Shown: positions 55,101 through 58,100 of the stretch, one piece after another
How the letters are laid out: each line of letters opens with the position of its first letter
Numbering within the stretch: position 1 is the stretch's first letter
Origin: Incurvaria masculella
Taxonomy: Eukaryota > Arthropoda > Insecta > Lepidoptera > Incurvariidae
Assembly: GCA_946894095.1 (NCBI GenBank)
Contig: OX335659.1
Coordinates: 2,549,501-2,613,500 of the forward strand
DNA length: 64,000 nucleotides
Direction of reading: 5' to 3'
Notes under the pieces: generated by a model
Databases searched by the model: none
Told to the model about the DNA's origin: nothing
The model's input: the letters and a program-made list of their open reading frames with translations, nothing else
Program-made: the position numbers and the translations under genes

Positions 55101-58100
55101 TAATGGTGCAGTGAAAGTTAGAAAACATAGTTAGATATTTGTCCCTTTTATCTTTCTTTATCCAGGGTGTGCTTATCATTTTCAGTATTTTGAGGGGCCA
55201 CTTTTTTAACACACACGAACAGATTGGAGGTGACTCCACCAACTGTTAACCTAAAACTGTAGTCTCAGTAAACACGTTCCCTTCAAGTTCAAATGAAACC
55301 TCAGGTGTTTTCAAGGATTTATCGCTAGGTTAGGATTTTTGTAACATAAAACAATTTGTTGTAAAAAAAAAATTGTTTTACGACTTCAATATTGTCTGAT
55401 CTCTGCCTTACCTTAGAGATTTATTATGTGAATTGTCCTCCTAGGAGTATTGGAATATAATATTTTGCTTTGCCATATACATTGTTCTGACTGGTTGGTT
55501 GCCGTCATATTCCAGGTGAAATTCGGGGACCGCATCCCCGCCGACATCCGCATCATCGAATCGCGCGGCTTCAAGGTGGACAACTCGAGTCTGACGGGCG
55601 AGTCGGAGCCGCAGTCGCGCGGCTCGGACTTCACGCACGAGAACCCGCTCGAGACGAAGAACCTCGCATTCTTCTCGACCAACGCGGTCGAGGGCACCGC
55701 CAAGGGCGTCGTCATCTCCTGCGGCGACAACACGGTGAGTGACAACTCGAGTCTGACGGGCGAGTCGGAGCCGCAGTCGCGCGGCTCGGACTTCACGCAC
55801 GAGAACCCGCTCGAGACGAAGAACCTCGCATTCTTCTCGACCAACGCGGTCGAGGGCACCGCCAAGGGCGTCGTCATCTCCTGCGGCGACAACACGGTGA
55901 GTGACAACTCGAGTCTGACGGGCGAGTCGGAGCCGCAGTCGCGCGGCTCGGACTTCACGCACGAGAACCCGCTCGAGACGAAGAACCTCGCATTCTTCTC
56001 GACCAACGCGGTCGAGGGCACCGCCAAGGGCGTCGTCATCTCCTGCGGCGACAACACGGTGAGTGACAACTCGAGTCTGACGGGCGAGTCGGAGCCGCAG
56101 TCGCGCGGCTCGGACTTCACGCACGAGAACCCGCTCGAGACGAAGAACCTCGCATTCTTCTCGACCAACGCGGTCGAGGGCACCGCCAAGGGCGTCGTCA
56201 TCTCCTGCGGCGACAACACGGTGAGTGACAACTCGAGTCTGACGGGCGAGTCGGAGCCGCAGTCGCGCGGCTCGGACTTCACGCACGAGAACCCGCTCGA
56301 GACGAAGAACCTCGCATTCTTCTCGACCAACGCGGTCGAGGGCACCGCCAAGGGCGTCGTCATCTCCTGCGGCGACAACACGGTGAGTGACAACTCGAGT
56401 CTGACGGGCGAGTCGGAGCCGCAGTCGCGCGGCTCGGACTTCACGCACGAGAACCCGCTCGAGACGAAGAACCTCGCATTCTTCTCGACCAACGCGGTCG
56501 AGGGCACCGCCAAGGGCGTCGTCATCTCCTGCGGCGACAACACGGTGAGTGACAACTCGAGTCTGACGGGCGAGTCGGAGCCGCAGTCGCGCGGCTCGGA
56601 CTTCACGCACGAGAACCCGCTCGAGACGAAGAACCTCGCATTCTTCTCGACCAACGCGGTCGAGGGCACCGCCAAGGGCGTCGTCATCTCCTGCGGCGAC
56701 AACACGGTGAGTGACAACTCGAGTCTGACGGGCGAGTCGGAGCCGCAGTCGCGCGGCTCGGACTTCACGCACGAGAACCCGCTCGAGACGAAGAACCTCG
56801 CATTCTTCTCGACCAACGCGGTCGAGGGCACCGCCAAGGGCGTCGTCATCTCCTGCGGCGACAACACGGTGAGTGACAACTCGAGTCTGACGGGCGAGTC
56901 GGAGCCGCAGTCGCGCGGCTCGGACTTCACGCACGAGAACCCGCTCGAGACGAAGAACCTCGCATTCTTCTCGACCAACGCGGTCGAGGGCACCGCCAAG
57001 GGCGTCGTCATCTCCTGCGGCGACAACACGGTGAGTGACAACTCGAGTCTGACGGGCGAGTCGGAGCCGCAGTCGCGCGGCTCGGACTTCACGCACGAGA
57101 ACCCGCTCGAGACGAAGAACCTCGCATTCTTCTCGACCAACGCGGTCGAGGGCACCGCCAAGGGCGTCGTCATCTCCTGCGGCGACAACACGGTGAGTGC
57201 CGGCCCCGGCCTTAGAACCTTAGAACTGCAACGGTTAGTTCCTATGTTAATGCGACACGGACATCTTGAGATTGCTACGGTGAACGATGAAATAAGACTG
57301 GTCTGTGCCAAATACAAAACCCGACTTAATAACCATGTCCATGTACTTGCATTGAACCGACTAATCTCAGATCACAAGCAACGACGACTTAAAACATATG
57401 ACAAACTGGATCTTGACAACCGGTTCTGATTGATCTAAGTTTGGAGGAAGGTCTAATGTTATTAACCTATAAAATCGCGCACACTCAAGAGATCTGATTA
57501 TAGTATGTAGACTGATCGCAGATGGATGTACCAAACAGAAAAAAGAATTTGATGCGACACAAGCAATACGGGCGATGAGGGACTCATTTTCAGAAGTAAT
57601 ACAAGTAATCTATATCTTTAGATGTAGAACAAAAGTGTAGTGAGGGAGTCTAGTATGTGAAGCAATAAATCGATCTGTAATACAGTTTTGTGTTAGTCAC
57701 ATTGTTAGAATCTCTTTAATAAATGAGAAATTGTTTTCCCTCTATGTTTTTCGCCTTTAACGGCTTCTCCTAATGTATTACTTATTCTTTTTCTGAGTCA
57801 TTAAATAGGCCCCATTGTGATAAATCGCTGGGACAACCATCCAAATTGACCTCATAAATAATTCAAACCTTTCCCAGAAAAAAAAATAGGGCCTGATTAT
57901 AAACTTTGAACATCGACAGTAGCATTTAGAGCTATGTGCTTATTTTATGATTGTGGATGAAAACATCTATATATCAGTGAAGTTTCTTTGCGGATTCTTT
58001 ATTACTGAGTCTAATCCGTGGATCTATCAGTTTGTTAGGTAACTTAGCTTGAAGTGCACTATCGCTGGTTATCGATAATGTTAAAATTAAAACATATATG

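Follow-up and report, generated by a model that had tools for sequence, protein, structure and literature searches.

A perfect tenfold tandem array over an exon end and its splice donor in the assembled Na+/K+-ATPase alpha gene of Incurvaria masculella, a candidate splice-hidden minisatellite

The Na+/K+-ATPase alpha gene and its tandem array

The window analysed here is the whole 64,000-nucleotide stretch of Incurvaria masculella DNA (GenBank assembly GCA_946894095.1, contig OX335659.1, positions 2,549,501 to 2,613,500 of the forward strand), which contained 0 N bases. Nine intact exons recognised in it belong to a Na+/K+-ATPase alpha gene (Table 1); their labels a to i are local to the window, and "exon 6" is the initial annotation's own numbering, which the window does not establish. 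The joined exons encoded a stop-free product of 595 aa, the C-terminal part of the protein lying beyond the last located exon (63019). The five best matches of this product were all lepidopteran (moths and butterflies), 94-95% identical over 100% of the query, and were followed by other insect orders, mostly at 88-93% (120 matches listed of 7993). Both TGES and DKTGT were present in the product of the located exons, and with this ortholog-level identity the gene had been correctly named as Na+/K+-ATPase alpha (Atpalpha). Because the nine exons are intact, share one frame and reach 94-95% identity to the best matches, the part of the gene within the window shows no sign of decay. At the junction of exons b and c (54369 / 54798), in the first extracellular loop, the joined product was the same as the Pieris and Bombyx matches, and the Q and N at the ends of that stretch are, we presume, the usual cardenolide-sensitive residues.

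Exon d reads VKFGD...TGES...SCGDNT, and its last 156 nt open a head-to-tail tandem array of 10 x 162 bp, in which copies 2-10 had 0 differences from copy 1. Tandem Repeats Finder likewise gave 100% matches and 0% indels, with a score of 3242, the top of its 17 rows for the window; thus the ten identical units of the initial annotation proved exact, as did its description of the unit as the last 156 bp of the exon plus GTGAGT and as a multiple of three. The unit begins at a codon boundary and ends with the first six intron bases of the donor. Beyond the array, the next 162 bases differed from the unit at 121 of 162 positions, and neither strand of the window had a 14-mer of the unit outside the array. 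Immediately after the last unit stands a G (57199), which equals the unit's first base, so that the outer breakpoints have one base in common, the single G previously pointed out. A perfect periodicity over 1620 bp cannot be put down to chance, and in repeating head to tail a unit whose length falls between tens and hundreds of bases the array has the form of a minisatellite.

Table 1. Positions of the gene, the array and other features within the window
Feature	Positions	Strand	Properties
Nine intact exons (a-i), Na+/K+-ATPase alpha gene	53675-63019	+	AG acceptors, GT donors, in frame
Exon d (donor 1 used)	55516-55734	+	219 nt, phase 0; acceptor TTCCAG/GTGAAA, donor ACG/GTGAGT
Tandem array	55579-57198	+	10 x 162 bp
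Unit 1	55579-55740	+	156 nt of exon plus GTGAGT; 64.8% GC; 54 codons; stop-free
Donor 1	55735-55740	+	predicted working 5' splice site; 8/9 consensus; exon 219 nt
Donors 2-10	55897-57198	+	162-bp spacing; all keep the frame; exon lengths from 381 to 1677 nt
Donor 2	55897-55902	+	
Donor 10	57193-57198	+	
Predicted intron, donor 1 used	55735-58262	+	2528 nt, holds copies 2-10
Next exon (e)	58263-58443	+	phase 0; begins VMGRIAGL; preceded by TGTGTCAG
Retroelement	16988-21672	+	gag-like frame (zinc knuckle, EQARRQ repeats in frame), followed by pol frame
Reverse transcriptase fragment	23018-23698	-	
Imperfect repeat regions, units of at least 10 bp	17204-17507, 27713, 34420, 44108, 60748, 61348		78-95% matches
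Sole other perfect repeat, units of at least 10 bp	34545		3 x 10 bp, 30 bp long

Seven other repeat regions with units of at least 10 bp were reported by Tandem Repeats Finder, 6 of them imperfect. A single intron of the Na+/K+-ATPase alpha gene contains two arrays of a related 33-bp minisatellite (60748-60894 and 61348-61471). Only 6 bases separate the second from the exon at 61478, so the gene has arrays at one donor and one acceptor. Dispersed direct repeats were also present outside the nine exons of the same gene (59746-59787 / 62062-62103, 90% identical; 62515-62596 / 63187-63268, 79% identical), and tetranucleotide arrays of CCGT and GACG occurred at 30740-30790, 32354-32416 and 49517-49571 (82-94% matches). 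The pol frame of the retroelement, which we take to be Ty3-like, contained protease, reverse transcriptase, RNase H and integrase domains. The translations of 63317-63997 (-) and 57214-57429 (+) resemble, in our judgement, parts of Jockey-type elements, and neither had a Pfam match; a role for a retrotransposon through the second of these, which lies just 3' of the array and is like a Jockey-type C terminus, was dropped for want of that match.

The open frame 55516-57198 matched the Pfam family E1-E2_ATPase. Aligned to solved pumps, the exon-coded part of the unit runs from just before SSLTGES to just before VMGRIA, which presumably corresponds to the later half of the actuator domain and the link to the third membrane segment. 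The spacing from SSLTGE to GRIA was exactly 56 residues in 161 of the 162 relatives listed by two protein searches, the remaining one missing the pattern, and TGES occurred once in 160, not at all in 2 and twice in 0 of them; several of these relatives are isoforms of one species, and the cases are not independent. No repeat was found in the matches listed from three protein searches (120 each of 1660, 7181 and 7993). When exon d plus most of the second unit served as the query, none of the 120 proteins listed of 1660 carried two SSLTGES motifs; P0082, in which 86% of the query was covered at 59% identity, had a single TGES. The search with the full open frame, which scored only the 7986 candidates with the most words in common, gave no repeated units among the 120 listed of 7181, the best query coverage being 18%. 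The proteins listed from both searches were ordinary pumps. Because 161 of the 162 listed relatives keep the 56-residue spacing, extra copies in the protein are unlikely to be tolerated, to judge from sequence conservation, and an enlarged form of the pump is unlikely to pump. The sequence GDNTVS appeared in 6 of the 120 fragment matches listed (of 1660, for the query of exon d plus most of the second unit), a sequence that a transcript left unspliced at a donor in this position would presumably encode.

Authenticity, origin and age of the array

The initial annotation had left open an assembly expansion of a smaller number of units. An assembler loop needs a long common word at the breakpoints, and here only one base is in common, so it is likely that at least one true tandem junction was present in the sequenced molecules; expansion from a single copy is thus less likely than that proposal implies, expansion from at least two real copies being conceivable. 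Two to a few real copies could have been repeated to ten by the assembler, the consensus step or a gap filler, which we regard as an unlikely but appreciable alternative. All ten copies being perfectly identical agrees with it, as this is also what an assembler repeating one unit gives, and exactly such an array would come from a loop of reads or k-mers across the junction of two real copies. Such a loop, however, itself requires real molecules bearing the junction, given outer breakpoints with one common base, and a 1.6-kb array is short enough for single long reads to span, if the assembly used such reads. In the fission yeast case the authors took the imperfection of the copies as an argument against assembly error (PMC3629103), whereas an array of identical copies lacks that argument.

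A complete artefact, with no germline tandem copy at all, such as a chimeric or rolling-circle product of library preparation, appears improbable. It would fit the position of the array in a strongly constrained exon, whose spacing is equal in 161/162 listed relatives, and the repeated units in 0 of the 120 matches listed (of 7181) for the full open frame. Nevertheless, both flanks are unbroken exon and intron, the surrounding gene is intact, and no 14-mer of the unit lies elsewhere in the window. Sequencing adapters that had been missed would leave inverted rather than direct repeats. Taken from the assembled sequence, a real array of about ten-copy size is probable.

Perfect identity had been read as a sign of very recent or ongoing turnover. 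At the mutation rate of Heliconius, 2.9e-9 per site and generation (95% interval 1.3e-9 to 5.5e-9; PMC4271535), and assuming neither homogenisation nor selection, the nine extra copies (1458 sites) would stay unchanged with a 50% chance for ~164,000 generations and with a 5% chance for ~709,000 generations, or 374,000 to 1.58 million over the rate interval. Thus, perfect identity is compatible with ages up to ~700,000 generations and does not require ongoing turnover. At two of the 52 residues encoded by the exonic part of the unit, the sequence departed from lepidopteran sequences picked by name: residue 47 was S, against C in 13 of 13, and residue 20 was H, against N in 12 of these 13. All ten copies carry both, so these two residues are either older than the amplification or normal for the species.

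The one-base junction had been held to fit an end-joining or slippage origin. In the collapsed locus, 28% of the breakpoint pairs 100-250 bp apart had 1 base in common and 57% had 0, so that such a junction arises by chance often enough to be uninformative; microhomology was rejected as a sign of mechanism, one base being at chance level and favouring neither end joining nor template switching. Two further candidates were rejected. The 6-bp direct repeat GACAAC opens the unit and recurs 15 bp short of its end, and recombination there would give a 147-bp unit, not one of 162. For hairpin-driven slippage, the single-stranded fold of the unit was only mildly stronger than those of shuffled sequences (z -1.93; 8 of 200 at least equal).

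Ten donors, one reading frame and the predicted fate of the copies

Splice sites were scored by a plain consensus count and a pyrimidine count, with no trained model. By these counts each unit held one strong donor, matching 8/9 consensus positions, the next best GT in the unit matching 4/9. Splicing from donor n would make the exon 219 + 162(n-1) nt long and keep the frame in every case, the gain being 54(n-1) residues (0 to 486), and donor 3 already leads to an exon of 543 nt. The intron upstream of exon d is 496 nt, and the downstream one ranges from 1070 nt (donor 10) to 2528 nt (donor 1). Ten AG dinucleotides were found in the unit, with pyrimidines at 5-9 of the 15 positions scored and with G as the preceding base in 7 of the 10. 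The nine real acceptors of the gene had 7-12 pyrimidines in 17 positions, and all 9 end in CAG. Each copy therefore seems, on these counts, to bring along a good donor but no AG site that convinces as an acceptor.

Introns are known to arise when exonic segments are duplicated in tandem (PMC4974935, PMC3629103 and PMC3443670), and the array could be conceived as an intermediate in intron gain, in which the repeats supply both donor and acceptor and single copies are spliced out as new introns. By pyrimidines alone, the AG sites of the unit are not separated from the real acceptors and so not clearly worse. Against this, the one CAG among the ten sites has the lowest pyrimidine count (5/15), and the unit donor is ACG/GT rather than AG/GT; with ACG before GTGAGT and no AG at the exon end, no dual-specific site, that is, a 5' and a 3' splice site in one sequence, was found. 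We regard intron gain as extremely improbable, and as the least likely of the readings weighed here.

The array could also be a functional device. Several donors might be used to yield a ladder of in-frame pump mRNAs with 0-9 extra 54-residue segments in the A domain, or the extra donors might act as spare U1-binding regulatory sites, the repeat number being a heritable dial. Such a function is in our view very unlikely. A unit that is open and a multiple of three makes every donor translatable, although the frame alone is expected by chance 1 time in 3, and splicing within the tandem coding repeats of UBC can vary copy number, according to the passages of PMC10809524 considered. The added segments would, however, break a region of equal length in 161/162 listed relatives, the 120 proteins listed of 7181 showed no repeated units at a best query coverage of 18%, and identical strong donors under exon definition led to use of the first donor only in the minigenes excerpted from PMC9225289.

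The same excerpts of PMC9225289 (Carranza et al. 2022) bear on which donor would be used. They place the change from intron to exon definition at ~250 nt, a length exceeded by both introns flanking exon d (496 and 1070-2528 nt), and give, from earlier work, ~500 nt as the length up to which exons between long introns are included efficiently. In five minigenes, each with a pair of identical strong donors and with introns of 365 nt on either side, the upstream donor alone was used, and when both identical donors were weakened, the two larger minigenes preferentially skipped the exon. In the human survey reported there, the upstream donor was favoured in 60% of strength-matched pairs, and the downstream donor in ~60% of all competing pairs. 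Because human minigenes with identical strong donors used the upstream one, donor 1 should win and copies 2-10 should become intron, an expectation by analogy in which human transfected cells and two donors stand in for an insect and ten donors.

Taken together, we favour, with moderate confidence, a real duplication of the exon boundary that has grown into a tolerated, splice-hidden minisatellite, in which donor 1 is used and which is not a functional device. A putative germline tandem duplication would have copied the last 156 nt of the exon together with six intron bases, through end joining or a template jump over one common base, and slippage or unequal exchange may later have expanded it to about ten copies. 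Through exon definition, donor 1 would pair with the upstream 3' splice site, which would keep the gene working: donor 1 would give the normal 219-nt exon, and copies 2-10 would be removed with the intron. If donors 2-10 were used occasionally, each copy would add a 54-residue segment immediately ahead of VMGRIA, where the A domain ends. The resulting forms would probably be inactive, and, being in frame, they would not be expected to undergo nonsense-mediated decay triggered by a frameshift.

Comparison with known systems and significance

ATP2A1, the gene of one intron-gain case, encodes another P-type ATPase. Like the known cases of intron gain by exonic duplication, as far as their excerpts describe them, the array consists of head-to-tail copies of an exonic segment with splice signals. 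Here, however, the duplicated piece covers the end of an exon that already existed, together with its donor, the AG sites of the unit do not convince as acceptors, and no new intron is needed, only a longer existing one. In the fission yeast case, an intron is built of several copies of a coding segment (PMC3629103); those copies differ among themselves, whereas the ten at this locus are identical.

In human UBC, one dual-specific site per repeat allows splicing to vary the repeat number, and VCX3A is presented as analogous (passages of PMC10809524). Both resemble the present locus, as far as those passages go, in having an array of coding repeats with a multiple-of-three unit, which at 162 bp is 54 codons here, and one splice site per unit; they differ in that ACG/GTGAGT is a donor only and that the repeats here are not working protein monomers. 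Exonic minisatellites (VNTRs) likewise have long units arranged head to tail and in frame in a coding exon, but the present array includes the exon's own donor, and most copies are probably intronic in the transcript. The closest experimental parallel in donor arrangement is given by the minigenes of Carranza et al. 2022 (PMC9225289), in which, in the part of the paper considered, identical donors compete for one upstream acceptor with introns of >250 nt; these are two donors in transfected cells, as against ten in a natural insect locus. Most likely, the array behaves as a minisatellite within which the donor of the exon itself happens to fall. The titles and abstract starts listed from the open-licence literature agree with the initial annotation that no insect Atpalpha allele of this sort has been described, and no array with the exon's own donor was found there in titles, abstract starts and passages.

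Should the array turn out to be an assembly expansion, it would usefully caution those who annotate repeats at exon boundaries. If real, the locus would be a natural counterpart of splicing minigenes, with ten identical in-frame donors competing for one acceptor in a gene that the animal probably could not do without, and donor usage at the array would bear directly on the cross-exon proximity rule. A real array would further show splicing hiding a large expansion of a coding repeat from selection, and such a hidden expansion would be an early step in the proposed routes to longer introns and to intron gain.
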